Translations under genes and position numbers: made by a program
Notes under the pieces: model-generated
The model's input: the letters and a program-made list of their open reading frames with translations, nothing else
Database searches by the model: none
Told to the model about the DNA's origin: nothing
Source: Opitutia bacterium Tous-C4FEB
Lineage (GTDB): Bacteria; Verrucomicrobiota; Verrucomicrobiia; Opitutales; Opitutaceae
Reading direction: 5' to 3'
DNA: 46,510 nucleotides
Assembly: GCA_002304445.1 (NCBI GenBank)
Contig: NEVA01000025.1
Coordinates: 1-46,510, forward strand
Part shown: in pieces, positions 17,568 to 35,877 of the stretch
How the letters are laid out: every line of letters starts with the position of its first letter
Position numbering within the stretch: position 1 is the stretch's first letter

Positions 17568-17804
17568 AAAAAGAAAAGGGACAGCGGGGAACGAGAAGGG
17601 ATCAGGAGAAGTTCGTCGCGGGGGTGGATGATAGCAAAATGAGACGGGGAATTCTCCCGCCCAACGTGGCATTTGTGATGGGATAATAAGGTTCAGCCGG
17701 CATCGGACGAGGCGAGACAATCCGTGGGGTTGCGGCCTTCGGAGCTGTGCGCGGTGAGGCAAACCATGTTACGACCGGATTAGAGGGGAAATTCGCGCAG
17801 GGTC

Positions 17805-18418: not shown

Positions 18419-20416
18419 TCATGGAGCGGCGGGACGGAAGGCGACGACCAAGGCGGCGTAGCGCGGATCGGTGACGCGGCGGAGTTCGGCCCCGATGAAA
18501 TCGGCCCAGAGCTGCGCGCCGGCCGCGCTCCAATGCGTTCGATCAGTGGGCACGCTGCCCAGAACGTCGGTGGCAGCGTCGCCCATCTTTTCCAAAAGGG
18601 CGACACTGTAGGGATGAACGTCGATGAGGAGGGTGTCCTTCTCCACGGCGACCTCGCGCATGGCCTGCGCGTAGCCGTCGTTGGTGGGCACGATTTTTCC
18701 GTCCGGGCCGAAGTGGCGGCGCTCCATCGGCGTGACAAAAATGAGACGCACACCGGCGGAAGCAGCCTCGTCGGCGTAGCGCCGCAAGTTTTCCTTGTAG
18801 GTGGTCTGCGGGTTGGTGCGGCGGTATTCCTCGCGCTTAGAATCGTTGTGGCCGAACTGGAGAAAGACGTAGGCCGGGCGGTGGGCGAGTAACTGCGCCC
18901 AGAGGCCTTCCTCATAAAAACTCTTCGAGCTGCGGCCGCCGCGGGAAAGGTTGTGCACGACCACGCCGGGCTTGAATTCCTGCTGCAGGAGCTGGATCCA
19001 GCCGCGGCCGTGAGCGGATTCGGGGCGCGTGACGAGGGTGGAGTCGCCCGCGGCACCGATCACCAGCGCCGCCGGCGTCGCAGGTGGAATCGCGACGCGC
19101 GCGGCCGGCGCGCGCGTTTGGCAGCGGCGCAGGCGGGCGGCGAAATCCATCAAGAAATCCTCGCGCCAGCGGCTGACGGAGAGCGCGCCGATGCGCGGAC
19201 CCACGGCCCGCGCGGGCGAGGGATCGTCAGTCCACCAGTTGGCCCGCAGCGCCGAGGGGCGCGACGCAGCGTCGGGCGGCGGCTTCACCGAGGTGAGCGC
19301 GCCGGACTTGCCGTCGAGCGCGGGAATGTTGCCGAGGATCGTATAGTGATAGAGCTTGGCCTCCTTCGGGGAGAAACGGAAACGGATGGAGCCCCGCCCG
19401 TCCACGTGGCCCACCAACTTTTGGTTCTCGATCACCATTTCCGCCGCAGGCTCCGCGGGCGCGCCGTTGCCGAGAGGCTGCGCGAGTTCGAACACGCCGA
19501 ACTGCTCGATCGTGTCGGCGACGGTCGTGAGCCGGTCGAAGACTTTATGCGCGCGATCCCACGCGCGAACGAACTGCCCGCCCCAGCCAGGGAAGGTCGG
19601 ATCCTCGGGCTTGCCGTGAAGAAGCCAGCCGACGGAGGGCGAATCGCCCATTTTGAGCGTCGCTCGGGTGACGGACTCAAACCGGATATCCTTCGCGAAA
19701 AACTCCCCGAGCGCGCCGCGGCCGACGACGTGGGTGGTGACAAAGCTGTCGTTGCCGCGATCGCCGTCCTGATTGCCGCCGGTGAACCATCCCCAGTAGG
19801 TTTCGTTGGCCTCGATCATCCAGAGGTCGCGGTGGTGCGTGGCGACGTAGTGGTAGGCATCGACACTCCATTTCAGGTTCGGGCCGCCGATGAAATAGAC
19901 GCGCAGCTTCGGCAGGATGTCGGGCGCATCGTGCAACGCCTGCGCGAGATCCTCGATCCCGCCCCACACGAGCACGTGGAGCGGGCGCGGGTCATCGCGT
20001 CGCGCGCACTGGACGATCCACTCCGAGCCCTCGGTCGGGCGATGCACGCCAGCGTAGGGGGCAGTCTCCGTTTCGCCCTGCTTGGTGATCGCGCGCAGTG
20101 CGGCGGGTGTCGGGTAGCGGTCGGAATACGTTCTTAGGTTCGGATAATCGCGCTCGTAGCAGTCGATGATCGGAAGGATGTGCTCCTTGCGGCCCGCGCC
20201 GTAGGGCGAGGAGATCACGCCCTCGAGGTTGAAGCTGTCCGCATAAACCAAGAGATGAACCATCGACTGGAAGTCGTCGAAGTCGGTCCCGCCAATGTCG
20301 GTGGAAACGATGACCCGGGGGCGCGGTGAATCGGCGGCGGCCGCGGCAGCGGCAGCGGCAATCACTGCGCAGGCGACAATCGCCAGCGAGAGGAAGAGGC
20401 GGACAGGGGCACGCAT
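18419..20416 (-). CDS. Nucleoside-hydrolase-like domain fused to rhamnogalacturonan acetylesterase
   Basis: A 665-residue exported protein with a signal peptide (1-28). Residues about 33-430 form a nucleoside-hydrolase-like (Sde182/DUF1593-type) domain; D40, D45, D47 and D48 in 'STDIGGTDFDDF' resemble the Asp cluster that binds calcium in nucleoside hydrolases. Residues about 448-665 are an SGNH esterase of the rhamnogalacturonan acetylesterase type: catalytic Ser in 'AAGDSTLV' (S459), Gly block 'NLSRGGRSS', 'FGHND' (N524) and the C-terminal 'DRTHWS' Asp/His. The esterase half should remove acetyl groups from rhamnogalacturonan. The N-terminal half is a close relative of the separate protein encoded at 31307-32635. 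It follows the PL1 lyase by 29 bp. The fusion is unusual. Confidence 0.85.
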   Translation of the reverse strand: MRAPVRLFLSLAIVACAVIAAAAAAAAADSPRPRVIVSTDIGGTDFDDFQSMVHLLVYADSFNLEGVISSPYGAGRKEHILPIIDCYERDYPNLRTYSDRYPTPAALRAITKQGETETAPYAGVHRPTEGSEWIVQCARRDDPRPLHVLVWGGIEDLAQALHDAPDILPKLRVYFIGGPNLKWSVDAYHYVATHHRDLWMIEANETYWGWFTGGNQDGDRGNDSFVTTHVVGRGALGEFFAKDIRFESVTRATLKMGDSPSVGWLLHGKPEDPTFPGWGGQFVRAWDRAHKVFDRLTTVADTIEQFGVFELAQPLGNGAPAEPAAEMVIENQKLVGHVDGRGSIRFRFSPKEAKLYHYTILGNIPALDGKSGALTSVKPPPDAASRPSALRANWWTDDPSPARAVGPRIGALSVSRWREDFLMDFAARLRRCQTRAPAARVAIPPATPAALVIGAAGDSTLVTRPESAHGRGWIQLLQQEFKPGVVVHNLSRGGRSSKSFYEEGLWAQLLAHRPAYVFLQFGHNDSKREEYRRTNPQTTYKENLRRYADEAASAGVRLIFVTPMERRHFGPDGKIVPTNDGYAQAMREVAVEKDTLLIDVHPYSVALLEKMGDAATDVLGSVPTDRTHWSAAGAQLWADFIGAELRRVTDPRYAALVVAFRPAAP

Positions 20417-20445: not shown

Positions 20446-22011
20446 TCAGCGCGCGCCGGCGCCGGCGCGGATCTTTTCCTCGAGGCCGTCGGTGGGATCG
20501 GCGGTGTAGGTGTAGGGCGGGACGAAGGCCTTGCCGTTTCCATAGAAGCCGGCCTGACCGGTGACGCCTTCGTGTTCCTTGATCGCGATGGGGCCTTTTA
20601 CAGCGTCGGGGATGGCCACGTCCTCAATCGACTCGAGCACGCTGTTCGCGTTGCCGCGGGCATAGTTGAACACCGTGGAAGTCCCGGCGCCGAGCTTCTC
20701 GGACGTCCACCACCACGACGGGCCGACGAAGTCCTTGTAAATGTTACGCTCCGACCGGACGTTCGCGTCGTTGCCCGGGCGCACCGCATAGTAGGACCGC
20801 CACTGGGGATCGGTGCCGGCAAGGCAGAGATTGTTGAAGGTGTGCACCTGGCCGAAGCGGACGCGCGGCATGCGCTCGTTGACCATCTTGGCGTAGAAGT
20901 TGTGGTGGTGGGTGACCCGCAACAGCCCGCGGCTCGTCGTGTCGTTGTCGCTCGCGCCGATGTTCACGCCCATATGATTATGCCCGAAAGAAGTCTGGCG
21001 GAAAACATTCCAGGAGAGGGTGACAAAGTCCGAAGTCCCCGAGACCACGAGCAGGTCCGTGCTGCCGTCGATGAACGAATTGTGGTCCAGCCAAACGTTC
21101 TTCACATCGTAAAGGACGGTGTTGGGCTGGTTCGGTTTGTGCACCCCCACCAAACTGAGGTTCTTGATGATGACGTTCCGAGAACCGGTAAGGCGCAGCA
21201 CGCTGGCATCGCTGCGGATCTCCGCGCCCTGCAACCCGAGGATGGTCTTGTTCGAGCCCACCGTCAGCGTGCCGCGTAGTTTGCCGTCCACATGAATGAC
21301 CCTCGGTTCTTCGCCCGCGGCCTGCGTCTGAAGTTCGCTCATGCTTCGCACGACGACGGGGCGGGCGTTGCCGCCGCCGATCACGCCGTCGCCTTGGGTC
21401 ACCCAGCCTACGGGCGGCGCGTTCAGGTAACTGAAATCCACCGGCGCAGCAGGCCCGGCGGCGGCTTCCGGTTCGCCGCAATTGCCCGGGGACGGGTTTT
21501 CGCCGGTCACTTTCAGGTAGTCGATGTTGGCTAGGCCGCGGTCAGTGATGGCTTGCAAGGCGATGGTGTTTTCACCGGCGACCAAAGTGACATCGACGGT
21601 GGCGGTCTGCCACTGCGCGAAGGTGCCGGTCGGAAACTGGGCCACGTTGAACTTTCCGTTCGCGCCGCCATTGACCTCGATCACGCCCGGGCGGGCTTCC
21701 TTGGCGCCATTGGCAAAGCGGAGTTCCAGCGTATGCGGACCGCCGGCCGGGGACTTGACGCTCCAGGTGATGCGGGCGGCTTTGTCGTTCGGCGAGTTGA
21801 TGTAACCCGCGCCGGTAAAACCAGAGCCTTTGGCCTCGAACATCACCGGATCGCAGATGCCCGGCTCCAACTCCTGCAGGGCGATGCTCGTGACCGCCTT
21901 CGAGGCGGGAGAACCGGCACCATCGGCGGCGGCATGGGATGAATGGAAGCCGAAGGCGGCAATAGCGAGGGCGGACAGGATCAGACTCGGGCGGACAAGG
22001 AAGGAATTCAT
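20446..22011 (-). CDS. Secreted pectate lyase (PL1) with N-terminal CBM35-like domain
   Basis: A 521-residue exported protein. The signal peptide covers about 1-28. A carbohydrate-binding module of the CBM35/CBM6 type spans about 40-170 ('FEAKGSGFTGAGYINSPND', 'GENTIALQAITDRGLANIDYLKV'). A right-handed beta-helix pectate lyase spans about 195-521. The lyase shows 'VWLDHNSFIDGSTDLLVVSG', 'VTHHHNFYAKMVNERMPRVRFG' with the catalytic-Arg R-x-P-R element, and 'VHTFNN', all typical of family PL1. It cleaves alpha-1,4-galacturonan by calcium-dependent beta-elimination. The 189-bp gap before it holds a small open frame whose TGA overlaps this ATG by 4 bp. Confidence 0.9.
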   Translation of the reverse strand: MNSFLVRPSLILSALAIAAFGFHSSHAAADGAGSPASKAVTSIALQELEPGICDPVMFEAKGSGFTGAGYINSPNDKAARITWSVKSPAGGPHTLELRFANGAKEARPGVIEVNGGANGKFNVAQFPTGTFAQWQTATVDVTLVAGENTIALQAITDRGLANIDYLKVTGENPSPGNCGEPEAAAGPAAPVDFSYLNAPPVGWVTQGDGVIGGGNARPVVVRSMSELQTQAAGEEPRVIHVDGKLRGTLTVGSNKTILGLQGAEIRSDASVLRLTGSRNVIIKNLSLVGVHKPNQPNTVLYDVKNVWLDHNSFIDGSTDLLVVSGTSDFVTLSWNVFRQTSFGHNHMGVNIGASDNDTTSRGLLRVTHHHNFYAKMVNERMPRVRFGQVHTFNNLCLAGTDPQWRSYYAVRPGNDANVRSERNIYKDFVGPSWWWTSEKLGAGTSTVFNYARGNANSVLESIEDVAIPDAVKGPIAIKEHEGVTGQAGFYGNGKAFVPPYTYTADPTDGLEEKIRAGAGAR

Positions 22012-22200: not shown

Positions 22201-23049
22201 TCACGGCGGGGGCGGCAGCATCTCGCGCAACCAAGCGACGAGCCGGTCGAGGTAGTCGGGCTGAAATTTATCCCAATCTGCCAAGCGGTGCGGCGCACCG
22301 GGAAGGCGGAGCAGATCACACCGCACGTCGAGGGAGCGAAGTTTCACCTGAAAGGCGACCGATTGCTCGAAGGGCACGGATTGATCGGCGTCGCCGTGGA
22401 CGAGCAGGAACGGCGGCAGCCCGGGCCGCAGATGATTGACGGGGGAAATGGCCCGCAACAGGCCGAGCGACTCCGGCGTGAGTTCAGCCGGTCGATTGAG
22501 CAGGCCTTGTTGCGCGCGGCCGAGGACGTTGCCCCGCTTCGGTAGTTCATGCTCAAAGTCGGTGAGCGGGGCGAGGCCGACGACGGCTTGCACGCGCGCG
22601 CTGTCGTCCACGACGGTGCCGGCGAAAGTCGCGAGGTGGCCGCCGGCGGAATAGCCGACGAGCGCGATGCGCGCCGGGTCGCCTTTAAATCTGACGGCGT
22701 GCGCCTTGAGCCAGCGGATGGCAGCGAGCACATCGTCGCGGCAGGCGGGCCAGCGATGGTGCGGAGCGAGACGGTAGTTGATCGAGACACACGTAAACCC
22801 GGCCGCGGCCAGCGGAGCGGGCAGCGGTGCGATGTCGCCCCCTTTGTCCCCGCCGGTCCAGCCGCCACCGTGGATCAAAATCAAAACGGGAAACGGCCCG
22901 GCGCCGTCCGGCACGACCGCGTCGAGTCGCAACATCACGCCGTCGGCTTCGCCGTAAACGACATCGCGCACCGTCGCGGACGCCGTCGCCGTGGCGAGGA
23001 CCGCAGCCGAAGCCGCGAGGACAAGCAGCAAGCGACAGAAGAGGAGCAT
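22201..23049 (-). CDS. Exported alpha/beta-hydrolase (esterase)
   Basis: A 282-residue serine hydrolase with a signal peptide (about 1-25). It shows the oxyanion motif 'LIHGGGW' (near 58), the nucleophile elbow 'GYSAGGH' (near 140), 'VHGDADQSVP' carrying the acid residue, and a C-terminal His in 'GAPHRL'. This pattern is that of the BD-FAE/acetylxylan-esterase-like branch. In a pectinolytic operon it most likely removes acetyl, methyl or feruloyl esters from the polysaccharide or its fragments. The exact ester is not visible. It sits 21 bp after an Sde182-like gene and is co-directional with both lyases. Confidence 0.87.
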   Translation of the reverse strand: MLLFCRLLLVLAASAAVLATATASATVRDVVYGEADGVMLRLDAVVPDGAGPFPVLILIHGGGWTGGDKGGDIAPLPAPLAAAGFTCVSINYRLAPHHRWPACRDDVLAAIRWLKAHAVRFKGDPARIALVGYSAGGHLATFAGTVVDDSARVQAVVGLAPLTDFEHELPKRGNVLGRAQQGLLNRPAELTPESLGLLRAISPVNHLRPGLPPFLLVHGDADQSVPFEQSVAFQVKLRSLDVRCDLLRLPGAPHRLADWDKFQPDYLDRLVAWLREMLPPPP

Positions 23050-23070: not shown

Positions 23071-24495
23071 TCAGGGCACGACGGTCACGATCACGCGCCG
23101 GTAGCGCGTGAGACGCGGCGTGCCGTGGTCGGTGACGGCGAGGATCACGTGGATCGTGCCGGTGCCCGGCGGCATCAAGCGGCCCGACGGCACCGTGAAC
23201 GCGGCCTTCGGCTGATCGAAATCCTTAATCTCGATCGGCTGGCCGGTGCGCCCGCTCGACGTCGTGAACGTGCCCGCCTCGCCGTAGTAGAACCATTCGT
23301 AGGAAATCGCGTCGCCGTCGGGGTCCGTCGAGCCCTCGGCGCTGAGCTGGATCCGGTCGCCCTTCTTCGCGGTCAGCGCGGCCGCATGGCCGAGCTTCAC
23401 GACCGGCGGATGGTTGGCGTCTTTGTAGGCCTTGGTCGTCCAATCGATGCGCGCGGCGAAATCGTTCTGGAATGCGGCGCGCCAGCGCCAGATTGTCGCG
23501 TGGTTCGTGGTGTGCCAGTTGCCGTCGACGCCCTTCACCTCGTCGGCGACGTTGGTCCAGAGCGGACGCGTCTCAGGCTCAAGGTGCCACTTTTCGAAAC
23601 GCGGGGTGTAGAGTTCGTAACGGCCGCCCCACCCGCCCCAGTTGGGTTGCTCCGGCGTGTTCAGACCGTTCTGCACGAGGCCGAGGAAGCTCGGCGTGTC
23701 GCCTTCCATCATAAACTCGGTGTGCGGGTGTTGCGCGCCGAGCGGGCCCTTGTTGCGGCGGATGTGGAGATCGAGCCAGCCGTTGTCGACGATGCTGAAG
23801 TCGGCGCCGGTGAAGCGCGCGTGAAACTTGTCGCCACCGATTCCGCTCCACGTGGCGAAGTGGTAAGCGCCGCCCGGGTGATAACCGGGGCTCGCGATGT
23901 AGAACAGACCGGGGAAGTTCTTCCGGACCCACGGGCCGGAGTTGTCCTGATCGGAGATAGTGTAGACGCGGAGCTTCGCGACGAATTTCGCGAGCGCCTC
24001 GGGCGAACGGGTGGCGCGGACTTTCCAGAGCGCCTGCGCGAGAACGTTTGGACCGCCCCACACGGGCACCCAGAGCGGGCGCGGGTCGTCGCGGTCGGCG
24101 GCGGCGATGAGCATTTCCGAGCCGGGCGAGTCGTGGCCTTTGCCCACGGCGTTCATGCCGTAGGCGGGCAGGCCTTCGCGGATGAGGGCGAGCAGTTGCC
24201 CGGCGACGGGATAACCGGGTTCGTGGAGGTTGAGGTTGGCCTGGACCTTGCCGTAGGCCTCGACGATTTCGCGGATGCGCCACGCGGCGGTCTTGTTGGG
24301 CTGGTGGATGGAGGTCGTGGCGACGAGACCCTCGATGTCGAACTGGTTGGCGTAGGTGAGAAGTCGCACCATCGACTGGGCGTCATCGGGCTCGTTCTCG
24401 ATGTCGGTGAGAATGAGGATACGGGTCTTCTCAGCGGCCGCGGCGAGAGGCAGGCAGCAGACGGCGAGCAAAAGCAGGAAGCGGGATAATTTCAT
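23071..24495 (-). CDS. Sde182-like protein (DUF1593, nucleoside-hydrolase fold) with C-terminal beta domain
   Basis: A 474-residue exported protein with a signal peptide (about 1-21). The nucleoside-hydrolase-like domain runs to about 310, with the acidic motif '[18 protein letters not shown]' in place of the DxDPGxDD motif of true nucleoside hydrolases. A smaller C-terminal Ig-like domain follows ('[23 protein letters not shown]', ending in a beta-strand run). This is the Sde182 architecture, named after a Saccharophagus degradans protein described as cellulose-binding; enzymatic activity is not established as far as I know. It is a close paralogue of the protein at 25667-27085, and the two flank a PL10 lyase. 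It may be a glycan-binding protein or an uncharacterised furanosidase. Confidence 0.85.
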
Positions 24496-24523: not shown

Positions 24524-25639
24524 TCAGCGCGCTGACGCCAGTCGCTCGCGCCACGCAGGATGGTCGCGCTTGATCAAATCGGCCGGCCCGGTCGTGTGGT
24601 AGCCGTAGCCGCTGCGGCGCTCGTAACTCACCTTGGCGTAGTCGTAGTTGGGTTTCGAATCGCGATCCATGTAGAGCGGCCGGTTGGTGCCGAGTTCGTA
24701 GAAACGCGCCCAGATCGGCGGGGCCGAGGGATCAGGCACGAGGACGCGCTCGTCACGACCGTCGTCACGGCGCACCCGGCTTTGGGCCTGCCCGGAAATC
24801 GGCACCGCGCGGAACCACGTCACGGCGCCTTCGATCGCGGCGATGATCGCGGGGGAAGGTTTTTCGACGCTCATCAGAAAACGCACGATGCCCACGCTCT
24901 CCGAGCCCGAAAGCGACGGAGGCTCGTAGGCGCGGGCCCACGCGGGCGCGAGGGTCGTCTCATCGTGTTGCGCGCACCACACCGTCAGCTTCCCGTCCTG
25001 CACGATTTGCGTTTTCACAATGCAGTCGATCCCGCGGGCGACGGCGTCGGCCGCGCGGGCGCGGTGGGCGGCGTCGATGAAAGCGAACGGCGCGCGGCCC
25101 TGCGCGACCTCGCGCAGGACTTCGAGCGTGTTGACCATGGCGCCGTCGTTGTAAGTGATGCGCGAATAGTAGCCTTTGCGCAGGGGATAGAACTGCGGGA
25201 ATCCGCCGTTGGGATACTGGGCGGCGAGAAGATAATCCAAGCCGCGCAACACGGCCGCGTGGTATTTCGTCTCTCCGGTGGCGTTGCCCACGAGAGCGAG
25301 GAACTGCATCGGGGCGGTCGTGGCGCCGTTGTCGATCGTGTTGGCTTTGCCCCCGAGCTGGACTTCCGCGAGCGCTGCGTCGCTCGCTGGCGCGAGCAGG
25401 TCGGTGTTTTTCGGCCAGGCGCCTTCGCGCGATTGGTAACGAAGCACGTTGTCGGCGGCGGCGCAGGCTTCGGCCGACGCATACCACGCAGGTTGAGCCC
25501 TGAGCAGCCGGCTCGACCATCGGACCGGTTCGGCCGCGCTGGCCGCGGGCACAGCGGGAGCCGGGCCCGGCTGGCCGAACCCCACGAGGGCGGCGCAGAA
25601 CACGACCAAGAACGGGATCGGATTTCGACGGAGCGGCAT
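24524..25639 (-). CDS. Secreted pectate lyase, family PL10
   Basis: A 371-residue exported protein whose hydrophobic N-terminus covers about residues 8-35. The alpha/alpha-toroid of PL10 is seen in '[29 protein letters not shown]', the calcium/active-site region '[16 protein letters not shown]', '[18 protein letters not shown]', '[23 protein letters not shown]' and the C-terminal Arg-containing '[13 protein letters not shown]'. It should cut polygalacturonate by calcium-dependent beta-elimination in the periplasm or outside the cell. It lies between two Sde182-like paralogues (gaps 27 and 28 bp) and is a paralogue of the C-terminal half of the protein at 28524-31268, without added binding modules. 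Confidence 0.9.
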
Positions 25640-25666: not shown

Positions 25667-27085
25667 TTACGGGGTTACCGTTACGATCACGCGCTGGTAA
25701 CGGGTGAGGGCGGGCGTACCGGAGTCGGTGACCGCGACGATCAGGTGCAACGTGCCGGTGCGGAGCACGCGGCGGTTCGGCACGTTAAACCAAGCCTCGG
25801 ATTTGTCGGCGTTTTCGATTTTGAAATTCACCGGCGTGCGCGCGCCCGCTGCGGTGAAGGTGCCGGCCTCGTTGTAGCAGAACCACCGGTAGGTGAGCGC
25901 ATGGCCGTCAGGATCGCTGGTGCCGGCCGCGCTGAGGTCGACCCGCTCACCGAGCTTGGCCAAAAGGGTGGCGGCATTACCGAGCCGGACGACAGGCGGA
26001 TGATTCGCCTCGGCATAGGGCTTGATCGTCCAGTCCATGCGGGCGGCGAAGTCGTTCTGATAGGCCGTGCGCCAGCGCCAGATCGTGGCGTGGTTGGTCG
26101 TATGCCACTTGCCGTCGTTGCCCATGACCTCGTCCTGCGCATCCGTCCAGAACGGCCGGGTCTCGGGCTCTAGCAGGCGGCGGTGCGGCGGCGGCGTGTA
26201 GAACTCGTAGCGACCGCCCCAACCGCCCCAATCCGGGCGCTCGGGTGCGTTGAGGCCGTTTGGGATCAGGGAGAGGAAGGTCGGGGTGTCGCCTTCCATG
26301 AGGTATTTGGTGTGCGGATGCTGCGCCCCAAGCGGACCCTTGCGGCGGATGTTTTCATCGAGCCAAGGATTATCAACCAAGCTGAAGTCAGCGCCGCCGA
26401 AGCGCCCCCAAAAATTGTCGCCGCTGATGCCGCTCCAAGTCGCGTGGTGATAGGCTCCGCCGTCGGCCATGCCCGGGCTGCAGATGTAGAAGAGCGCGGG
26501 AAACGTCTTCCGGATCCACGGGCCGCTGTTGTCCTGATCGGAGACCGCATAGACGCGGAGCTTGGCGACGAACTTGGCCAGCTCGGCCGGCGAGCGCGTG
26601 GCCTGCACTTTATAGAGGGCTTGAGCGAGGACGTTGGGACCGCCCCACACCGGAACCCACAGCGGCCGCGGATCGTCGCGATCGACCGACCGGATAAGCC
26701 GCTCCGAGGCGGAGGAATCATGGCCGGCGCCGACGGCGTCCATGCCGTATAGGGCCGGCCCCTCGTCGATGAGGGAGCGAAGGTAATCGACGGTCGGGTA
26801 ACCGGGCTCGTGGAGGTTAAGGTTGGCCTGGACCTTGCCGTAGGCCTCGACGATCTCGCGGATGCGCCATGCGGCGGTTTTGTTGCGTTGATGGACGGAG
26901 GTAGTGGCGACGAGGGCCTCGACGTCGAACTGGTTGGAGTAGGTCAAAAACCGCACCATCGACTGGGCGTCGTCGGGCTCGTTCTCGATGTCGGTGAGGA
27001 CAAAGACACGCGGTTTCTCGGCGGCGACAACGGCGGCGAAAAAGACGAGCGCGAGCCACAAGAGAGAGAGTCGGGAAAGCGTCAT
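25667..27085 (-). CDS. Sde182-like protein (DUF1593), paralogue of 23071-24495
   Basis: A 472-residue exported protein with a signal peptide (about 1-22), '[18 protein letters not shown]', then '[20 protein letters not shown]' and '[18 protein letters not shown]', and a C-terminal Ig-like domain ('[17 protein letters not shown]', ending in a beta-strand run). It is alignable end to end with the copy at 23071-24495. With the intervening PL10 gene this suggests local duplication. It starts 25 bp after the GH140 stop. The role is not established; the position next to an apiosidase-family gene is the main clue. Confidence 0.85.
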
Positions 27086-27110: not shown

Positions 27111-28514
27111 TCAGAGCGAGCCCGGGGCTTTGAAGTTCTTGGCCGTATCGTCGAGCACGAGCACCCAGTCGTTGCCCGCAGCGGGATCGCCGGGCGGGTT
27201 AAAGGTGCGGGTGCCGGAGTTGGCGACCGTGCCGGCGGCGCTGGACTCGCCGGTGCGTGGGTTGAACCACGAGACGTTGAGCGTGGTGCCGGAGAGCGCG
27301 CCGAGCTTCAGCGTGAAATCGCGACCGGTATAGATGTAGGCGAAGAGGTAGCTCGCTCCGCGCGTGACGAGCACGCGCTCATATTTCTCGCCTTCAACGC
27401 CGGCGACCAACGACTGGTCGGCAACGCGCTCGAAGAACGGACGGGAAAGCATCAGGGCCTTGAGGTGCGGCATCGCGCGGGCGCCGTCGGTTTCGAGGCG
27501 GTCCATGATGAAACCCTTCGCGCCGCTGGCGGGTTTTTTCTCGGTGACGATGTAAACCTGGCGCACGGAGTTTTCGCCGAAGGTGTGGCCGGAGGCACCG
27601 GCGAAGACGGACCAGTAGGCGTAACGGCGGGAGTCGGCGCCGGTCCAGTAGGGTTCCTCGGGTTTATGCAGGCCTTGCGGGGTGTTTTCGTAGGCGGGCT
27701 CGGCATCGAGCACGGGGCGCTTCGGATCGGCGGCGCGTGCCTCGAGCACGTAGCGCCAGTTGTCTTCGCCGTATTTGCGGCCTTCGGTATCCTGGTCGTA
27801 GCGACGGTGACCGGAAGTAAACATGTGGACGTCGAGCCACGCGGAGTCCTTGAACCAATCGGTGGTCACCGTGCGTCCGAAGGGGTGGTAGGCCACCAGC
27901 TGATCGGGATTTTCCTTTTGCAAGGTCTCGCCGATCACCTTCCAGACGTCAGTGTTTTCGTGACCGCGCGCGGAGCCGCCGTTGAGCCAGAGGACGTTGG
28001 CGCGGTCCTTGTAGCGCTTGGCGACCTGCTCAATATAAAGGCGGACTTGCGCGGCGGTGAGCGGCGTGCGGCGCACCATGTGGCTCCACACCGGCGCGAT
28101 GGCCACGTGGATGCCGTTGGCCGCGGCGGTGTCCACGACGTAGTCCACGTGATCCCAATAATCGTATTGCGCGGGGTCGGCCGGATCGGCGCCGGGGGTG
28201 ACGTTGAGTTTCGTGAGATCTTCGCCGACAAGCGCGGGACTGCCGGTGATGCTCTTGTCGGTGAGAAACTGGACCACGCAGCACTGCACGACGTTGAAGC
28301 CCTTCGCGCGGCGGTTTTCGAAATAGGTCTTCACCTCGGCGCGGGTGAGTTTCTGCGTCATCAGCCAAGCGGTGTCGCCAAGCCAGAAGAACGGGGCGCC
28401 GTCGGCCTGTTGAAAATATTGACCGCCGGGTGAGACGCGCAGCAGGCCCGGCGAATAGGAATCGGCGGACAACGACGTGGCGGCGAGGGCCGCGAGGAGC
28501 AGGGATCGGATCAT
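27111..28514 (-). CDS. Glycoside hydrolase family 140 (DUF4038), apiosidase-type
   Basis: A 467-residue exported protein with a signal peptide (about 1-17). The DUF4038 (beta/alpha)8 domain has '[11 protein letters not shown]', '[22 protein letters not shown]', '[12 protein letters not shown]' and '[18 protein letters not shown]'. A small C-terminal beta domain follows ('[13 protein letters not shown]', '[12 protein letters not shown]'). The motifs match GH140, whose characterised member BT1012 releases D-apiose from rhamnogalacturonan II. The candidate nucleophile E272 ('LDAEPAYE') is present. The family motif G-G-D, which I take as carrying the acid/base Asp, reads G-G-S here (S181), so activity is uncertain. 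It lies 9 bp after the CBM/PL10 gene. This is the best clue that apiose is the monosaccharide of the locus. Confidence 0.88.
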
Positions 28515-28523
28515 AGGGTTGGG

Positions 28524-31268
28524 TCAGTTGGGGGTTTTTGCGAGGCGGGCGCACCATGCGGGGTAATCGTTGTCGAGGAGCGGCGCGGCCCAGGTGCCGT
28601 GGTAATCGTAGCCGCTGCGCCGTTCGTAGCCGACCTGCATGAAGTCGTAACGAAAGACCGAATCCCGATCGAGATAGACGGGGCGATTGGTGCCGAGCTC
28701 GTAGAAGCGCGCCCACAACAGCGGCGCCTTTGGGTCGGGCACGAGCCGGCGCTCGTTACGACCGTCGGCACCGATAATCTCATCGAGACGCTGACCCCTG
28801 ATGGGCACGGCACGCAGCCACGCCACCGCGCCCTCGATGGCGGCGATGATCTCCGGCGACGGCTTCTCGATCGACATGAGAAAGCGGGTGACCGTCACGC
28901 TCTCGGCCCCAGCGATCGATGGCGGCTCGTATTTGCGGGCCCAGGTCGGGGCCAGCGTCTTCTCGTCATGCTGGGCGCACCAGCCGGTGAGCTTCCCGTC
29001 CTGCTTGATCTGCGTCTTCAGAATGCAGTCGAGGCCGCGGGCGAGCGCGGTCGTCGCGCGCGTGCGCCGCGCCTCGTCGACGAACGCGTAAGGCGGTCGC
29101 CCGGAGGCAACCCCTTGCAAGACCTGCATCACGCGGATCATGGCGCCGTCGTTGAACGTGATGTGGTCGTAATAATCTCCGCGCAACGGCCAGAACTGCG
29201 GCCAGCCGCCGTTGGGGTATTGGGCGGCGAGAAGGTAGTCGACACCGCGGAGAAACGATTCGCGGTAGCGGGGCTCATCGGTGGCGGTGGCGACGAGCGC
29301 GAGGAAGCGCATGGGCACGGTGGTCGCGTCGTTGTCGAGGCTGTTGGCGCGGCCGCGGCCCTCGGGCGGGATGTCATCCGGCGTGCGCGGCGGCACCGCG
29401 AGGTTGGTGCTCTTGGGCCAGCCGCCCTTGGACGACTGATACTGCAGCACGCTGTCGGCGATGGCGCGCGCGGCGGGCGTGGCATACCACTCCGGCGGAC
29501 GGCGCAGGTAAGCGCTGCTCCACGCCGCGGGCGCGGCGGGCGGCAGGGCGAAAGGATCAGCGAGGTAACGCGTCATGCGGGCGGCGATCTCCGCGTGCGA
29601 GAGCGAGGCTTCGAGAAAGCCGATCACGCAGATGTGCTCGTTGCCGCTCATGCCGCGGATCTGGTATTTCTGCTCGGGGCCGGCGCGGCCGAAGGAGTAA
29701 AGGTCCATGTTATGCAGACCGCCGGGGCGGATCTGGCGATGGTTCTCGTTGGGCGCGTCGTCATCGGGCGACTTGGCAATGAAGAGCACCTGTTTCGCCT
29801 TCGGGTCGCCGATGTAGAACCACTCGGGGGAGAAATCGGGGAACTCGCCGCGCGGGATGCGTTTCACGCCGTCGGCCGCGACGAAGTAGTCGGCGGCGTC
29901 GGCGGTGCCGCCCGCGACGGTTTCGAGAAGGAAACAGTAATCTCCTTTCGAGCGCAGCACCTTCACCGCGATGCGGTCGGGGAAGAACCAATACTGAAAC
30001 GTGAAGTCGGCGTTGGACGATTCGAGGATGACGTGGTCGCCCTCGGTGCGGCCGTCGATAACCTTGGTGGTCGAGCCGCTGTTGCGGCCGGCGTGGCCGA
30101 AGTTTCCCACGCTGTTGGGAAAGCCGCGGAAATCGCCGTTGGGGCCGGGCGGCATATACGCCGCGATCCAGTCGTTGCCCGCGCGGTCGACGAAGCTCTT
30201 GAAGCCGGAGACGCCGTTGTCTTTTTCGAAGTAGACGGTGCCCATGGGCGTCTCGATCTTGTAGCAGCCGACGCCGCCCCACGTGACTTCGCTAAGCCGC
30301 ACGGGGGCAGTCGAGGCCGGCACGGGCGTGAACTTGAGGTGATCGAGATTCGCAAGACCCTCGGCAGTGGCGGCGGTGAGACGGACGGTGTTTTTTCCGG
30401 CCTTGAGCTCGACCGGGCGCGATGACGTCACGTAAACCCAATCGGTCCAGAATCGGGTCGGCGGAAACGCGAACTCGGCTTCGGTGACCTCGCCGTTGAC
30501 GCGCACCTCGGCGACGCGGGTGTCGGGTTTGCCCTGCGCGTAACGCGCCGCGAGAATGTAGCGCCCGGCGGCGGGAGCGTCGAACGTGACTTCGAAGTGG
30601 CTGCCAACCTTGTTGTCGGCGTCGAGGTAACCTTCGCCGGTAAAGCCGGTGTGCGGGCCGGGATGCTGCGCGATGAAGTTCCAACAACTGTGGTGATCGA
30701 CCTTGCCCTCGAAAAGTCCGTCTTCGGCTTCGAGCACGACCACGCGGGGCACTTCACCCGGGGCGGGATCGCGCAGTTCGGTGACCTTGAGGTAATCGAC
30801 GTTGCCCAGACCGCCGTCGGCGAGCGCGACGAGGCGGATCAAGTTGCGACCTTGCGGCAAAGTCACCACGGCGGAATCGGTCCGAAAGGCGGGCAACACC
30901 CGGCCCTGCGGCATGGGCAAAATCGGGCCGTCCTTGCCGTTGATCCAAAGCTGGCCAGGGCGCGGGTCGGGCTTGATGTGCGTGTAGCGCACGGTGACGC
31001 GGTGCGGGCCGGCGCGCGGCGCGTCGTAGGCGACCTCGATAAAGCTGCCCGTCTTGTTCGGAGTATCCACCAACCCGGTGCCCGAGTGGGTCGAGTGGGG
31101 CTCGTCGGAGAGCATGACGTTGTGCCAGCAACTGTGTTTATCGATCCACCCGCTGAAGGTGCCGGACTCGGCTTCGACGATCAGAGGTGCGGTCGCGGGT
31201 TGGGCCAACGCAAAGCCCGCGGACCAGACCACGGCGGCGAGAACGATCAGGGAACGAGGGATTTTCAT
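28524..31268 (-). CDS. Multidomain pectate lyase: two CBM35-like modules, unknown beta domain, PL10
   Basis: A 914-residue exported protein; the ATG at 31268 is chosen because a good signal peptide (1-23, FALAQ) follows it. Two similar CBM35-like modules (about 24-165 and 166-305) share 'VEAESGTF/LEAEDGLF', a 'HSCW' motif and 'LGNVDYLKV/LANLDHLKF' ends. A domain of about 280 residues follows ('WGGVGCYKIETPMGTVYFEKD' to 'HAEIAARMTRYLADP') that I cannot assign. Residues about 600-914 are PL10 ('SLDNDATTVPM', 'WCAQHDEKTLAP', 'GYERRSGYDYHG'). It should bind and cleave pectin. The gap to the preceding nucleoside-hydrolase-like gene is 38 bp. Confidence 0.87.
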   Translation of the reverse strand: MKIPRSLIVLAAVVWSAGFALAQPATAPLIVEAESGTFSGWIDKHSCWHNVMLSDEPHSTHSGTGLVDTPNKTGSFIEVAYDAPRAGPHRVTVRYTHIKPDPRPGQLWINGKDGPILPMPQGRVLPAFRTDSAVVTLPQGRNLIRLVALADGGLGNVDYLKVTELRDPAPGEVPRVVVLEAEDGLFEGKVDHHSCWNFIAQHPGPHTGFTGEGYLDADNKVGSHFEVTFDAPAAGRYILAARYAQGKPDTRVAEVRVNGEVTEAEFAFPPTRFWTDWVYVTSSRPVELKAGKNTVRLTAATAEGLANLDHLKFTPVPASTAPVRLSEVTWGGVGCYKIETPMGTVYFEKDNGVSGFKSFVDRAGNDWIAAYMPPGPNGDFRGFPNSVGNFGHAGRNSGSTTKVIDGRTEGDHVILESSNADFTFQYWFFPDRIAVKVLRSKGDYCFLLETVAGGTADAADYFVAADGVKRIPRGEFPDFSPEWFYIGDPKAKQVLFIAKSPDDDAPNENHRQIRPGGLHNMDLYSFGRAGPEQKYQIRGMSGNEHICVIGFLEASLSHAEIAARMTRYLADPFALPPAAPAAWSSAYLRRPPEWYATPAARAIADSVLQYQSSKGGWPKSTNLAVPPRTPDDIPPEGRGRANSLDNDATTVPMRFLALVATATDEPRYRESFLRGVDYLLAAQYPNGGWPQFWPLRGDYYDHITFNDGAMIRVMQVLQGVASGRPPYAFVDEARRTRATTALARGLDCILKTQIKQDGKLTGWCAQHDEKTLAPTWARKYEPPSIAGAESVTVTRFLMSIEKPSPEIIAAIEGAVAWLRAVPIRGQRLDEIIGADGRNERRLVPDPKAPLLWARFYELGTNRPVYLDRDSVFRYDFMQVGYERRSGYDYHGTWAAPLLDNDYPAWCARLAKTPN

Positions 31269-31306
31269 CGGGACGGGGTAAGTTGACCGGGGCGGAGTGG
31301 AAGAAA

Positions 31307-32635
31307 TTAGCGCGGCGGCGCGGGGCCGCCGGAAGGCGTGCGGCAACGTTCGAGGCGCGCCGAAAAATCAGCGAGAAAAGCTTCGCGCCACACGCTGATC
31401 GTGCGCGCGCCTTGGTGGATGCCCTCGGCGGCTTCAGGCGACGGGTCATCCGTCCACCAATTCGGCCAACGCGGATCGGGCGTGAGCGCGGCCGCCGGCG
31501 CGGGAGGATAAACGGTGATTTCACCGCGCCGGCCTTCAAGCGACGGGATGTTGCCGGCGAGCGTGTAGTGGTAGAGTTTGGCGTCCTTCGGGCAGAAGCG
31601 GAAACGGATCGAGCCTGCGCCGTCGACGTGGCCGATGAGGCGTTGATTCTCGATCACCATCACGGCCGCGGGGGCGGCGGGCGCGTTGGGTCCGAGCGGC
31701 AGCACGAGTTCCAAAATGCCGAAATGCTCCATGCGATCCACGGCGGTGGTGATACGGTCAAATTTCACGGAGGGCCGCGTCCAAGCGCGGACGTAACGGC
31801 CGCCCCACCCCGGCTGAAACGGCAGCTCCGGATTGCCGCGCAGCAGCCAACTGAAGGTCGGCGTGTCGCCCATTTTCAAGGACGTGCGCTTCTGCCCATG
31901 AAAGATGATCCCGTGCGCGAAAAACTCCCCGAGAGCGCCCCGGCCGGCGGCACGTTTTTCGGCAAAGGCCTCGGCCGCGAAATCGCCCTCCTGATTCCCG
32001 CCCACAAACCAGCCGCGGTAACTCGAGTTGGATTCGATCATCCAGAGAGACGGGTGTTGCGTCGCGATGTAATGGTAAGCGTCGGGGCTCCACTTTTTGT
32101 TTGGGCCGCCGATGAAGTGCACGCGCAGCTTAGGCAGAATGTCAGGCGCGTCGTGGAGCGCTTGGGCCACGTCTTCAAGACCGCCCCAGACCAGCACGTA
32201 GAGCGGACGCGGATCGGCGCGCCGTGCGCACTCGATGATCCATTTCGAGCCTTCGGTCGCGCGCAGCACGCCGGTGTAGGGCGCGATCTCGGTCTCGCCT
32301 TGCTTGGTGATCGCCCGGAGCGCGGCGGGCGTCGGGTAACGATCAGAGTAAGTTCGGAGATTCCGGTAGTCCTTCTCGTAGTGCGCCAGAACCTCGAGGA
32401 TGTGTTCTTTGCGGCCCGGACCGTAGGGCGACGAAATCAGACCTTCGAGGTCGACCACGTCGGCGTAGAGAAGGACGTGCACGAGCGACTGGAAATCGTC
32501 GAAGTCGGTGCCACCAATGTCGGTCGAGACGATCACGCGGTGGCGCGTGCCGGCGAGCGCACCGGAATCGGCGTGGCTCACGGCCGGCGACAGGAGGGCA
32601 AATCCGAGGAGAAAAATGAGAGGGTGAAGTTTCAT
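31307..32635 (-). CDS. Exported nucleoside-hydrolase-like (Sde182/DUF1593-type) protein
   Basis: A 442-residue protein with a signal peptide (about 1-22). The acidic motif is 'STDIGGTDFDDFQSLVHVLLYAD', followed by 'SSPYGPGRKEHI', 'VWGGLEDVAQALHDAPDILP', 'FIGGPNKKWSPDAYHY' and a C-terminal 'NWWTDDPSPEAAEG' segment. It is very similar to the N-terminal 430 residues of the fusion at 18419-20416 but has no esterase domain. Its ATG shares one base with the permease stop (TGATG), tying it directly to sugar import. The open frame continues upstream inside the permease gene, but that part is not a protein signal. It may act on a furanoside before uptake; this is inference. Confidence 0.86.
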   Translation of the reverse strand: MKLHPLIFLLGFALLSPAVSHADSGALAGTRHRVIVSTDIGGTDFDDFQSLVHVLLYADVVDLEGLISSPYGPGRKEHILEVLAHYEKDYRNLRTYSDRYPTPAALRAITKQGETEIAPYTGVLRATEGSKWIIECARRADPRPLYVLVWGGLEDVAQALHDAPDILPKLRVHFIGGPNKKWSPDAYHYIATQHPSLWMIESNSSYRGWFVGGNQEGDFAAEAFAEKRAAGRGALGEFFAHGIIFHGQKRTSLKMGDTPTFSWLLRGNPELPFQPGWGGRYVRAWTRPSVKFDRITTAVDRMEHFGILELVLPLGPNAPAAPAAVMVIENQRLIGHVDGAGSIRFRFCPKDAKLYHYTLAGNIPSLEGRRGEITVYPPAPAAALTPDPRWPNWWTDDPSPEAAEGIHQGARTISVWREAFLADFSARLERCRTPSGGPAPPR

Positions 32636-33615
32636 CAGGTTTCGCGTCCCTTGGAGTTCATTTTGTCGAGCGCCACCGCGAGAAGGATGACGCCGCCCTT
32701 GATGACCTGTTGCCAGAAGGGCGAGACATTCAGGAGAAACAGGCCGTTGTTGAGCACGCCGATGATCAGGCAGCCGAGCACGGTGCCGGCGACCGAGCCG
32801 CGCCCGCCGGAGAGCGACGTGCCGCCGATCACGACGGCGGCGATTGAATCGAGTTCGTAGCCAAGGCCGGCGTTGGGCTGGGCGGAGTCGAGGCGCGCGG
32901 TGACGATCAGGCCCGCGACCCCGGCGAGCGCGCCGGCCAGCGTGTAGATCGCGAGCTTGATGCGCCCGACGTTGAGGCCGGTGAGGCGCGCGGCGCGCTC
33001 GTTGCCGCCGACGGCGTAGAGGTGGCGGCCGAAGCGCGTGCGCTTCGTCACGACCACGAAGACCGCCGTCAGCGCGAGCATGATCCACACAGGCAGCGGC
33101 ATGCCGAGAAACGCCCCGGTGCCAATGTGACCGAAATCGTCGCCCAGCCCGGTAATGGGAAAGCCGCCTGTCCACAGCATCGTGAGCCCGCGCGCGATGC
33201 TGAGCATGCCGAGAGTCGCAACGAATGGCGGAAGTTTGAATCGGGTGACCGCGAAGCCGTTGCACCAACCTGCGGCGCCACCGACGAAAACGGCCGCGAG
33301 AATCGCGCCGAAGACGGTGAACTCGATCCACAGCGTGGTTCCGGGGATACCCAGGCCGTGTTTCAACAAACCGGCGGCGACCGCGCCCGCGAGCCCAAGG
33401 ATCGCGCCGACGGAGAGATCGATGCCGCCACCCAGAATGACGAGCGTCATACCGATCGACAGGCAGAGGTTCACCGAGATCTGGCGGAGAATGTTCCAGC
33501 CGTTGTCGGGGGTGAGGAAACGGTCGGAGAGCAGACTGAGCGCGAGCACCATCAGGCCGAGCGCGAGCAGCGAGCGGAAGCGGGCGAAAAAGGCTTTGTA
33601 ATCGGGCGAGGTCAT
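32635..33615 (-). CDS. Ribose-type sugar ABC transporter permease
   Basis: A 326-residue inner-membrane protein of the RbsC/BPD_transp_2 family with about nine hydrophobic segments. Signatures are 'IGMTLVILGGGIDLSVGAILGLAG', 'NGFAVTRFKLPPFVATLGMLSIARGL', 'GRHLYAVGGNERAARLTGLNV' and 'AAVVIGGTSLSGGRGSVAGT'. The ATG at 33615 lies 4 bp after the ATPase stop; an upstream TTG is less likely. It forms the channel with the ATPase and binding protein. The stop overlaps the next gene by one base. Substrate by context: D-apiose or another pentose released from pectin. Confidence 0.93.
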   Translation of the reverse strand: MTSPDYKAFFARFRSLLALGLMVLALSLLSDRFLTPDNGWNILRQISVNLCLSIGMTLVILGGGIDLSVGAILGLAGAVAAGLLKHGLGIPGTTLWIEFTVFGAILAAVFVGGAAGWCNGFAVTRFKLPPFVATLGMLSIARGLTMLWTGGFPITGLGDDFGHIGTGAFLGMPLPVWIMLALTAVFVVVTKRTRFGRHLYAVGGNERAARLTGLNVGRIKLAIYTLAGALAGVAGLIVTARLDSAQPNAGLGYELDSIAAVVIGGTSLSGGRGSVAGTVLGCLIIGVLNNGLFLLNVSPFWQQVIKGGVILLAVALDKMNSKGRET

Positions 33616-33619
33616 GCGG

Positions 33620-35194
33620 TCAGGAAGCAAGTGCCATGGCGCGATCGGGCAGCGCGGCGGAGAGCACGCGTTCGGCGGTGGCGTCGGCGCGGGTGAATTC
33701 GGCGGTGGCTCGGCCCTCGCAAAGCACGAGCACGCGGTCGGCGAGCGCGAGGATTTCGGGGAGCTCGGACGAGACGACGATCAGGCCGAGGCCGGCCTGC
33801 GTGAGTTCGTCGATGAAGGTGTAGATTTCGCGCTTGGCGTTCACATCGATGCCGCGCGTGGGTTCGTCGAGCAGGAGTATCTTCGGCCCGGTCGCGAGCC
33901 ACTTGGCGAGGATGACCTTCTGCTGATTGCCACCGGAGAGATTGATGATGAGTTCATCGACCGACGGTGTCTTCACGCGGAAGCGCTCGAGATAAGTGGC
34001 GATGTGGGCGTGTTCGCGCGCTGGGCTGACGAAGCCGCCGCGCAACGCCGGGCGCAGGTCGGCGAGGCTGGCGTTGGCGAGCACGCTCATGGGCAGCACG
34101 ACGCCGTCGCGTTTGCGGTCCTCGGGCGCGAAGGCGAGGCCAGCGGCGATGGCATCGGCCGGACCGCGAAAACGCACTACCCTACCCTCGATGGTGACCG
34201 TGCCCGCGGCGCGGCCGGCGTGCTGGCCGAAGAGCGTTTCGAGCAACTCCGTGCGACCCGCACCGATGAGGCCGAAGATGCCGAGCACCTCGCCGCGACG
34301 CAGCGTGAGCGAGACGTGATCCACGAGAAAACGCCGACCGACGCCGTCGCCGGGGAGGACGATCTTTTCGGCGCGGAGCAACTCGGCACCGGGCGTCGTG
34401 GTGGTTTTCTGAAAAATTTCCTTCGGTTCGCGGCCGGCCATGAGCCGCACGAGGGCGTCGCGGGTAAGTTCGCCGTAGGTCGCGGTGCCGACGAGTCGGC
34501 CGTCGCGCATGATGACGAGGTCGTCGCAGATGCGCGCGAGTTCCTCGAATTTGTGCGTGATGTAGACGAGGCCGACGCCGGCGCGTTTGAGATCGGCGAT
34601 GACGTTGAAGAGGACGGCGACCTCGTGGGAGGAGAGCGAGGAAGTCGGCTCGTCGAGGATGAGCACGCGCGCGTCGGCAGAGAGCGCTTTGCCGATCTCG
34701 ATGAGCTGCTGCTGGCCCACGCGGAGTTCGCCGACGAGCGTCTCGGGGTCAACGGGGAGATCGAGGCGCGTGAGGATCGCGGCGGTGTCGGCGTGGAGAC
34801 GGGCGTAGTCGATCAGACCGGCGGCGGTGCGCGGCTCGCGGCCGAGCCAGATGTTTTCCGCGACGGTGAGGCCGGGGATGAGATTGAGTTCTTGGTGGAC
34901 GATGCCGATGCCGAGGGCCTGCGCATCGCGCGGGCTGGCGAAACGGACTTCGGTCAAGGAAAGCGCGTTAGGGACAACGCGCTCCACCACGCGGATGGTG
35001 CCGGCATCGGGCGGGAAGACGCCCGAGAGGATGTTCATCAACGTGGACTTGCCCGCGCCGTTTTCGCCCAGCAGCGCGACGAGGCGGCCGGCGCGCACCT
35101 GCAACGACACGCCCGCGAGCGCGCGCACACCGGGGAAGGATTTCTCGATTCCAGTGGCGTCGATCAGGACGTCGTTGGTCGCGGCGGGCGTCAT
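33620..35194 (-). CDS. Ribose-type sugar ABC transporter ATPase (two nucleotide-binding domains)
   Basis: A 524-residue RbsA-like protein with duplicated ATPase domains. Domain 1 has Walker A 'GENGAGKST' (43-51), signature 'LRVGQQQ' and Walker B 'VLILDEPTSSLS'. Domain 2 has the degenerate Walker A 'GLIGAGRTE', signature 'LSGGNQQKVILAKWL' and Walker B 'ILLLDEPTRGID'. This asymmetry is normal in the RbsA/MglA group. It powers uptake through the downstream permease. Its ATG overlaps the TGA of the DUF2291 gene by 4 bp. Confidence 0.94.
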   Translation of the reverse strand: MTPAATNDVLIDATGIEKSFPGVRALAGVSLQVRAGRLVALLGENGAGKSTLMNILSGVFPPDAGTIRVVERVVPNALSLTEVRFASPRDAQALGIGIVHQELNLIPGLTVAENIWLGREPRTAAGLIDYARLHADTAAILTRLDLPVDPETLVGELRVGQQQLIEIGKALSADARVLILDEPTSSLSSHEVAVLFNVIADLKRAGVGLVYITHKFEELARICDDLVIMRDGRLVGTATYGELTRDALVRLMAGREPKEIFQKTTTTPGAELLRAEKIVLPGDGVGRRFLVDHVSLTLRRGEVLGIFGLIGAGRTELLETLFGQHAGRAAGTVTIEGRVVRFRGPADAIAAGLAFAPEDRKRDGVVLPMSVLANASLADLRPALRGGFVSPAREHAHIATYLERFRVKTPSVDELIINLSGGNQQKVILAKWLATGPKILLLDEPTRGIDVNAKREIYTFIDELTQAGLGLIVVSSELPEILALADRVLVLCEGRATAEFTRADATAERVLSAALPDRAMALAS

Positions 35195-35877
35195 GGTTTC
35201 ACTTCGACCGTAACCGGGATGAAGGTGAGCAACGGTCCGGCGGCGGGGAGCGATTCGGGGGCCTCGGCACAGCCGGCAAAGGTGATGGTCGCGCCGACGG
35301 CGACGGTCTTGAGCGGGGGTTGCACGCGCGCCTCGACGAGGCGGTTGAGCTCGGCGGAGAGGGCGTTGAACTCGGTGAGGCCGGGCACCTGGTTCACGTC
35401 GAGCAGTCCGCAGCCGTCGCGCACGACGTTGCCGAAGACCGGTCCGGTGCGCAGTGCGACGACGGTGCCGTCGAGCTCGATGAGCAGGCGGCTGCGCTCA
35501 ACGGCCGTGACGCGGCCGGTGCCGCGCACGAAGTAGAAGGCAGCGTTACCGAGGCCGACGCGGTGCGCGTGGGTCTTGGCGGCGGCGGCAGGATCGCGGC
35601 GAAGATCCGCGAGCAAAATTAGGGCCCCGGGAGCGCGGGCGGCGGCGGGGGCGAGTTGGTCGCGCCAAAATTTTTCGGCGAAGGCGACGGCGTCGAAGGC
35701 GACGACGGCGGACACGCCCGTGGACGCGTTCGCCGGGGGAGCGTCACCGGCGCGTTTCGTGACGATGCGGAACGGCGGGAACGCCACGAGCAGGCCGGCG
35801 AACACGACGCCGGCGACGATCACCGGCCACGCGACGAACGGTTCGCGGCGCGCATTGCCGCCAGCGGGGGCGCCCAT
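35191..35877 (-). CDS. DUF2291 protein associated with the sugar ABC transporter
   Basis: A 228-residue protein with one N-terminal membrane segment (about 16-33) and an extracytoplasmic domain. 'AFAEKFWRDQL', 'GLGNAAFYFVRGTGRVTAVERSRLLIELDG' and 'GLTEFNALSAELNRLVEARVQPPL' match DUF2291, small anchored proteins usually encoded beside ribose-type ABC importers and of unknown function. It lies between the binding protein (4-bp gap) and the ATPase (4-bp overlap), so it is almost certainly translated with the transporter. It may assist docking or be an accessory binding protein. Confidence 0.8.
   Translation of the reverse strand: MGAPAGGNARREPFVAWPVIVAGVVFAGLLVAFPPFRIVTKRAGDAPPANASTGVSAVVAFDAVAFAEKFWRDQLAPAAARAPGALILLADLRRDPAAAAKTHAHRVGLGNAAFYFVRGTGRVTAVERSRLLIELDGTVVALRTGPVFGNVVRDGCGLLDVNQVPGLTEFNALSAELNRLVEARVQPPLKTVAVGATITFAGCAEAPESLPAAGPLLTFIPVTVEVKP

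Follow-up and report, generated by a model that had tools for sequence, protein, structure and literature searches.

Serine in place of the strand-4 aspartate of a GH140-like protein in a small Opitutaceae-type clade of Verrucomicrobiota

Introduction

Described relatives of the protein reported here include BT1012 (PDB entries 3kzs and 5msy), which we take to be the GH140 apiosidase of Bacteroides thetaiotaomicron, and a protein named as a GH140 apiosidase from a mangrove metagenome in the title of its PDB entry, 8t9w. Apiosidases of this kind remove the plant sugar apiose from pectin. In the order that is usual for clan A, the two catalytic carboxylates have the reverse of the roles that were assigned to them in BT1012. 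Asp187 and Glu284 of BT1012 were proposed to be catalytic by superposition only, with Asp187 as the nucleophile/base and Glu284 as the proton donor, and the strand-4 site of the family is Asp in 82%, Glu in 17.3% and Asn in 0.7% (PMC4032388).

The plant myrosinases (GH1) are retaining-type enzymes that have kept the nucleophile and lost the acid/base. In A. thaliana, these enzymes have Gln in place of their second catalytic Glu, and the account of them cites Burmeister 2000, by whose title ascorbate takes over from the catalytic base (PMC9632345). Their likeness to our protein is functional only, and they differ from it in family, substrate and cofactor.

On the side of sugar catabolism, the closest described system is the D-apiose cluster of E. 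coli SE15 (AptA/AptB/AplK), which resembles the locus described here in having a split transketolase, an FGGY kinase, a sugar-binding protein, a DUF2291 protein, an ATPase and a permease. Apiose supports the growth of strains that carry the E. coli cluster (PMC13001218), apiogalacturonan is described as a cell-wall pectin of duckweed (PMC6062639), and GH140 is annotated in an Opitutaceae isolate from co-culture with duckweed (PMC12613999).

Here we analyse a gene on contig NEVA01000025.1 of Opitutia bacterium Tous-C4FEB, the whole 46,510-nucleotide stretch of which is referred to as the window. Sequence-based annotation would name this gene an apiosidase although a defining catalytic residue is absent across its whole clade.

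Results and discussion

A GH140-like protein with serine at the acid/base position

A previous sequence-only reading of the window had described a GH140 protein with the motif GGS in place of GGD, the serine being S181, and with an intact glutamate, E272. We found the gene at exactly 27111-28514 on the minus strand, with S181 in the GGS motif and E272 in the 'LDAEPAYE' stretch of the translation (Table 1). The protein matches the Pfam Apiosidase domain PF13204 (1.8e-90, 304.3 bits against a curated cut-off of 26.5), has PF12904 at its C-terminal end, and is probably exported, judging from its signal-peptide-like start. In phmmer alignments with all three family sequences that have a structure (4qfu, 3kzs/5msy and 8t9w), S181 corresponds to the Asp of GGD and E272 to a Glu. 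After conversion of the 3kzs construct numbering, these residues are Asp187 and Glu284 of BT1012. The serine therefore stands at the acid/base position of the family, as the sequence-only reading had it, and Asp187 falls on S181 and not on another conserved residue, which would have refuted that reading.

The structure of the window protein was predicted with AlphaFold from an alignment of 36 sequences, in which the window protein was joined by 35 loci out of the 40 that the contig scan described below had yielded (L039, L049, L064, L065 and L067 were left out). The model (mean pLDDT 91.9, pTM 0.90) confidently predicts a BT1012-like (beta/alpha)8 barrel. VIA-align superposed it on 5msy_B (Z 55.4, rmsd 1.4, 435 aligned, 39% identity) and on 8t9w_B (Z 52.3, rmsd 1.5, 416 aligned, 34% identity). 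Strand 4 spans residues 174-182 in the model, which places S181 at its end, and strand 7 spans residues 268-270 with E272 just after it.

The window protein resembles BT1012 in two-domain architecture, in fold, in the Glu284 equivalent and in many pocket residues. It differs in having Ser181 for Asp187, T for Q at 233, I for W at 336, and R318 (from the alignments), and its gene company differs too, with NH-like proteins, pectate lyases and a sugar cassette in the window. The 8t9w protein is likewise similar in fold and in both domains but has the GGD Asp; a literature search for apiosidase and mangrove found only unrelated work. Of the features that define the family, the window protein has the PF13204 match, the fold with PF12904 and the strand-7 Glu, and it has S181 where the strand-4 carboxylate should be. 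As it lacks this one defining feature of GH140, an assay should come before any listing as a GH140 apiosidase.

The serine arose once and is conserved

A scan of genome contigs yielded 40 loci, four of which (L028-L031), all from Verrucomicrobiota MAGs, carry GGS. Relatives with 42-50% identity, from Bacteroidota (Chitinophaga, Hymenobacter, Mucilaginibacter and others) and one from Ignavibacteriae, carry GGD, the Bacteroidota in 19 of 19 rows. The family to which both L031 and L028 (titled Opitutaceae) belong was searched across 251 genomes, which added L104 (G960), L108 (G795) and L109 (G788). This brings the total to eight GGS loci in eight genomes, the window included. The family search gave 38 rows; eight rows had no locus, of which two were read elsewhere and six (approximately 38-41% identical to L031) were left unread. 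In another scan, length and E-value filters removed weak, short matches before the site was read. Among the matches from searches of the order (372 genomes, E up to 1e-40) and of the phylum (387 genomes, E up to 1e-60), the window's own gene was the sole GGS gene.

All eight Ser codons are TCN, either TCC or TCG with the third base varying, while GAT stands there in L110, which of the Verrucomicrobial GGD homologues found is the nearest; two or more base changes separate this codon from TCN. We therefore reject a sequencing or base-call error, and chance, as explanations, because Ser recurs in eight loci of eight genomes with differing TCN codons.

The substitution has a single origin in a small Opitutaceae-type clade. 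In a tree of 101 rows (rows that were identical or shorter than 350 residues were dropped, with L108 in and L109 out), inferred by a quick method with no bootstrap, the seven GGS rows formed one branch with SH-aLRT support of 100, for which one change is needed. This clade shares a 28-row branch with 19 Bacteroidota rows, L034 and L110. A freshwater link for the clade is hinted at only by words like 'pond' and 'groundwater' in the titles of its records.

The six intact GGS genes are under purifying selection. Across residues 25-360, dN/dS was 0.08-0.37 for their 15 pairs, while the six pairs that include L108 gave 0.22-0.39; these ratios are rough, since many dS values approach or exceed 1. 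L108 (L134, 9580-10800) is decaying: it has changed at numerous positions that are invariant elsewhere, and its C-terminal part is scrambled, but its Ser and E272 are kept. The L109 gene is frameshifted. This suggests that the GGS gene is dispensable in some hosts, or that these assemblies are poor. The window's own genome and G716 each have one PF13204 gene, and the matches in other GGS genomes number two in G717, three in G718 and six in all in G719. G717 and G719 have at least one GGD paralogue each (L093, L094), so ordinary activity in these two genomes need not depend on the GGS copy.

Outside the GGS clade, the strand-4 site was read in 96 distinct family reading frames (identical frames were dropped, and a few of the D rows have no Gly-Gly before the site): D occurs in 91, E in five and S in none. 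The five with Glu are the PF13204 relatives L009, L010, L011, L017 and L099, which agrees with the Glu minority given in PMC4032388.

The substitution would be trivial, and the window protein an ordinary apiosidase, if the family used a residue other than the strand-4 Asp as its second catalytic carboxylate. This idea draws on the assignment of Asp187 and Glu284 by superposition only (PMC4032388). It also draws on D270, another acid of high conservation, which precedes E272 by two positions. We consider it very improbable: the site lies at the end of strand 4, where we take clan GH-A enzymes to have their acid/base, and is D or E in all 96 of the sampled members outside the clade.

Further changes in the active-site pocket

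Among the columns with 90% conservation or more in the GGD rows used for comparison, six are replaced in the GGS clade. Replacements of the same type number none in 19 Bacteroidota rows, one in six Cohnella rows and two in six Fibrisoma-type rows; with a stem length of 0.54, close to the 0.56 of the GGS clade, Cohnella is the fairest control, and Bacteroidota (0.12) is a weak one. D181 is replaced by S in the clade (D in 91/91 GGD rows, by row selection), Q233 by T or V (Q in 88/91) and W336 by I or F (W in 90, with one gap among the 91 rows), while G144 has become S or R. R318 is present in 8/8 GGS loci and in 0/91 GGD rows. Nine other positions, D47, W50, W143, H236, D270, E272, Y275, E276 and R296, are retained in all six intact GGS genes. 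The clade-diagnostic columns were not significantly enriched at strand ends (4/8, compared with 25/94 eligible columns, p = 0.20). Because the nearly invariant Q233 and W336 have changed as well, the pocket appears to have been rebuilt beyond the loss of Asp. Conservation across the clade, together with these additional changes in the pocket, strengthens one of the options of the sequence-only reading, that the enzyme is catalytically altered.

The best single reading is that the window protein is a re-specialised retaining glycosidase with a rebuilt pocket, in which E272 is kept as the nucleophile and the strand-4 carboxylate is not used. We hold this tentatively, at slightly less than an even chance. 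An exported GH140-like barrel would have lost its strand-4 acid/base (Asp to Ser181) and kept the strand-7 Glu272 together with many invariant residues. The leaving group would then be protonated by another residue, with Glu186 favoured, or the step would be bypassed with help from the substrate. The six intact Ser proteins and their GGD relatives make a compact natural set in which to ask if activity in a retaining glycosidase can survive the loss of the acid/base, and which group then takes its place.

A rather improbable alternative is that the Asp is dispensable, as in myrosinases: the substrate that glycosylates E272 would have a leaving group able to depart unprotonated, or the reaction would be assisted by the substrate or a cofactor. 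The Glu to Gln change in the A. thaliana myrosinases offers a precedent (PMC9632345), and the Ser is fixed in the clade rather than drifting. However, pectic apiosides have sugars as leaving groups, which are poor, and nothing here points to the use of a cofactor. We know of no activated natural pectic apioside.

Candidate substitute acids

For a re-specialised glycosidase, comparison of the sequences favours E186 as the putative substitute acid. This residue lies in the loop between strand 4 and helix 4, five residues past S181, and the position is acidic in all eight GGS loci (the six intact genes and both damaged ones) and in 18 of the 19 Bacteroidota sister rows. An acid at 186 in the sister rows suggests that the loop acid is plausibly older than the loss of Asp. 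The position is not acidic in most other GGD rows, but 44 of these 72 rows have D or E at 185; with an acid at 185 or 186 so common among GGD rows, a loop acid is nothing special in itself.

The earlier proposal that D189 takes over did not hold up. At this residue, the second of model helix 188-201, clade members have D or E. As 3/19 Bacteroidota and 18/72 other GGD rows have E there too, it has no special standing, and E186 is the better candidate. H145 and H185 were ruled out as universal substitutes, as L031 has Y and G at these positions. E314 was set aside also: the six intact genes encode E here, but L109 has Q, L108 has A, and 2/19 Bacteroidota GGD rows have E as well.

In a more specific form, the GGS clade may have relocated its general acid/base off strand 4 to the pre-existing E186, with the pocket rebuilt (R318, T233, I/F336) for a new furanoside of substituted galacturonan. 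This version is unlikely as a whole. If true, it would be a natural move of one of the two catalytic residues inside a clan-A-like barrel.

Gene neighbourhood and its recurrence

The GGS gene is located amid genes for NH-like proteins and pectate lyases, with an ABC sugar transporter upstream and a sugar isomerase, a split transketolase and an FGGY kinase downstream (Table 1). The window has four Sde182_NH-like (PF07632) proteins between 18419 and 33331, one of them fused to a GDSL esterase domain. These proteins may be true sugar-releasing enzymes. A scan for promoters and terminators found signals that were no commoner than chance, and a literature search on DUF1593 found nothing.

Table 1. 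Coordinates of the GH140-like gene, its catalytic positions and neighbouring genes in the window.
Feature	Position	Strand	Basis or remark
FGGY sugar kinase, nearer GlpK than AplK	12810..14291	-	Domain search, similarity
Split transketolase, C-terminal half	14295..15395	-	43% identical to AptB
Split transketolase, N-terminal half	15302..16141	-	51% identical to E. coli SE15 AptA
Fucose-isomerase-C-type sugar isomerase	16143..17762	-	Domain search
Sde182_NH-like + GDSL lipase/acylhydrolase	18419..20416	-	Domain search
CBM6/35 + Pectate_lyase_4 (presumably PL1 type)	20446..22011	-	Domain search
BD-FAE-type alpha/beta hydrolase (esterase-like)	22201..23049	-	Domain search
Second Sde182_NH-like protein	23071..24495	-	72-87% identity to its counterparts in five other GGS loci
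Pectate lyase, PF09492 Pec_lyase (presumably PL10)	24524..25639	-	Domain search
Sde182_NH-like protein (nucleoside-hydrolase-like domain)	25667..27085	-	Domain search
GH140-like gene (PF13204 + PF12904), GGS not GGD	27111..28514	-	467 aa; signal-peptide-like N-terminus (by eye)
Glu272 codon GAG, nucleophile position after strand 7	27699..27701	-	PDB alignments, model, codon reading
Glu186, candidate substitute acid	27957..27959	-	Acidic in 8/8 GGS loci
Ser181 codon TCC, acid/base position of strand 4	27972..27974	-	PDB alignments, model, codon reading
CBM6/35 modules + pectate lyase (PF09492)	28524..31346	-	Domain search
Sde182_NH-like, domain at residues 265-513	31307..33331	-	Listed start probably upstream of true one
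Sugar ABC permease, ribose type	32635..33630	-	Similarity to RbsC
Sugar ABC ATPase	33620..35194	-	Domain search, similarity
DUF2291 lipoprotein	35191..35877	-	Domain search
Sugar-binding protein, Peripla_BP_4	35882..36910	-	Domain search, similarity
AraC-type regulator	37030..37929	+	Domain search

NH-like neighbours were found in seven of the eight GGS loci and a pectate lyase in six (not in L133 or L135). The isomerase/transketolase set was seen directly in six of the eight; the L030 contig ends before the set could show, and in G960 the set is on another contig with no GH140 match, apart from the GGS gene. The same queries against ten GGD loci (L032-L034, L003, L035, L040, L044, L048, L136 and L137), whose flanks differ and are in some cases short, gave no match to any other window gene. 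G783 (L187) is a counter-example: about 9 kb separate its cassette from a distant GGD homologue, and the interval holds NH-like and pectate-lyase genes. NH-like genes also accompany the cassette and transporter with no GH140 match in five of 20 fetched cassette loci (L179, L185, L186, L189 and L190).

These distributions bear on a serious rival, which we rank second and regard as doubtful: that the protein is a pseudoenzyme, which either serves to bind a pectin fragment decorated with apiosyl or pentosyl groups or no longer has a role, with the gene vanishing in some lineages, while the Sde182_NH-like neighbours release the sugar. The presence of NH-like genes both with most GGS loci and with cassettes that have no GH140 would fit this, as would the separation of the GGS gene from the cassette in G960, the GGD paralogues in G717 and G719, the loss of three nearly invariant positions (D181, Q233 and W336), the decay of L108 and the frameshift in L109. 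Against it, E272, D270, Y275, W143 and R296 are retained in the six intact genes and dN/dS is low. Furthermore, we know of no tested activity in the NH-like family, and the only clear solved relative found, 2yhg, is named as a cellulose-binding protein.

Which sugar is released

If the window protein is a re-specialised glycosidase, we infer that it would carry out retaining cleavage of a pentofuranoside, with a beta-D-apioside as first choice, from the products of pectate lyases acting on substituted galacturonan. Apiose is favoured, not proven, as the sugar because of the GH140 homology and the pectate lyases.

The cassette was considered as proof of apiose, and its value for this is weakened by how common it is in the family, by a GH127 gene beside it at other loci, and by a kinase and a transporter nearer GlpK and Rbs. 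The isomerase is found in 47 of the 251 genomes of the family, and in all 20 loci fetched from these (L175-L194) it forms a four-gene cassette with the split transketolase and the FGGY kinase. GH127 lies on the kinase side in seven of the nine cassette loci scanned there (L176, L177, L180, L181, L191, L192 and L193) and was not seen beside the kinase in the other two (L182 and L184).

The window differs from the E. coli SE15 cluster in having a sugar isomerase rather than oxidoreductases. Its transketolase halves are 51% and 43% identical to AptA and AptB, compared with 32% and 26% to TktA, with no other split transketolase in the comparison. The FGGY kinase, matched against four E. coli kinases, is nearer GlpK (37%, 364 bits) than AplK (34%, 260 bits), and the transporter is nearer the Rbs proteins than the apiose set. 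At E 1e-5, the isomerase had no match to FucI or XylA, and the DUF2291 protein had none to its E. coli apiose-cluster namesake.

The locus points to the use of substituted pectin, perhaps apiogalacturonan of the duckweed type, in Verrucomicrobiota, and our literature search found no description of such use in this phylum. RG-II was also considered as a substrate of the window protein. L040, the sole locus of a Bacteroidota relative with Pfam-scanned neighbours, has a BT_1020-like gene, a GH43 and an acetylesterase, a set that we take to be of the RG-II type. The window's own genome has one BT_1020-like gene (contig 39, L196 2544-13200), in a run with DHDPS, an SBD_N/NBD_C kinase, PdxA, Fe-ADH and an SSF transporter. 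The neighbours scanned there look like a sugar-acid catabolic set and not like an RG-II set. In L136 (G937), a GGD homologue lies near an SDR and a two-domain SBD_N/NBD_C kinase, presumably of the DUF1537 type, which suggests a different sugar-acid route.
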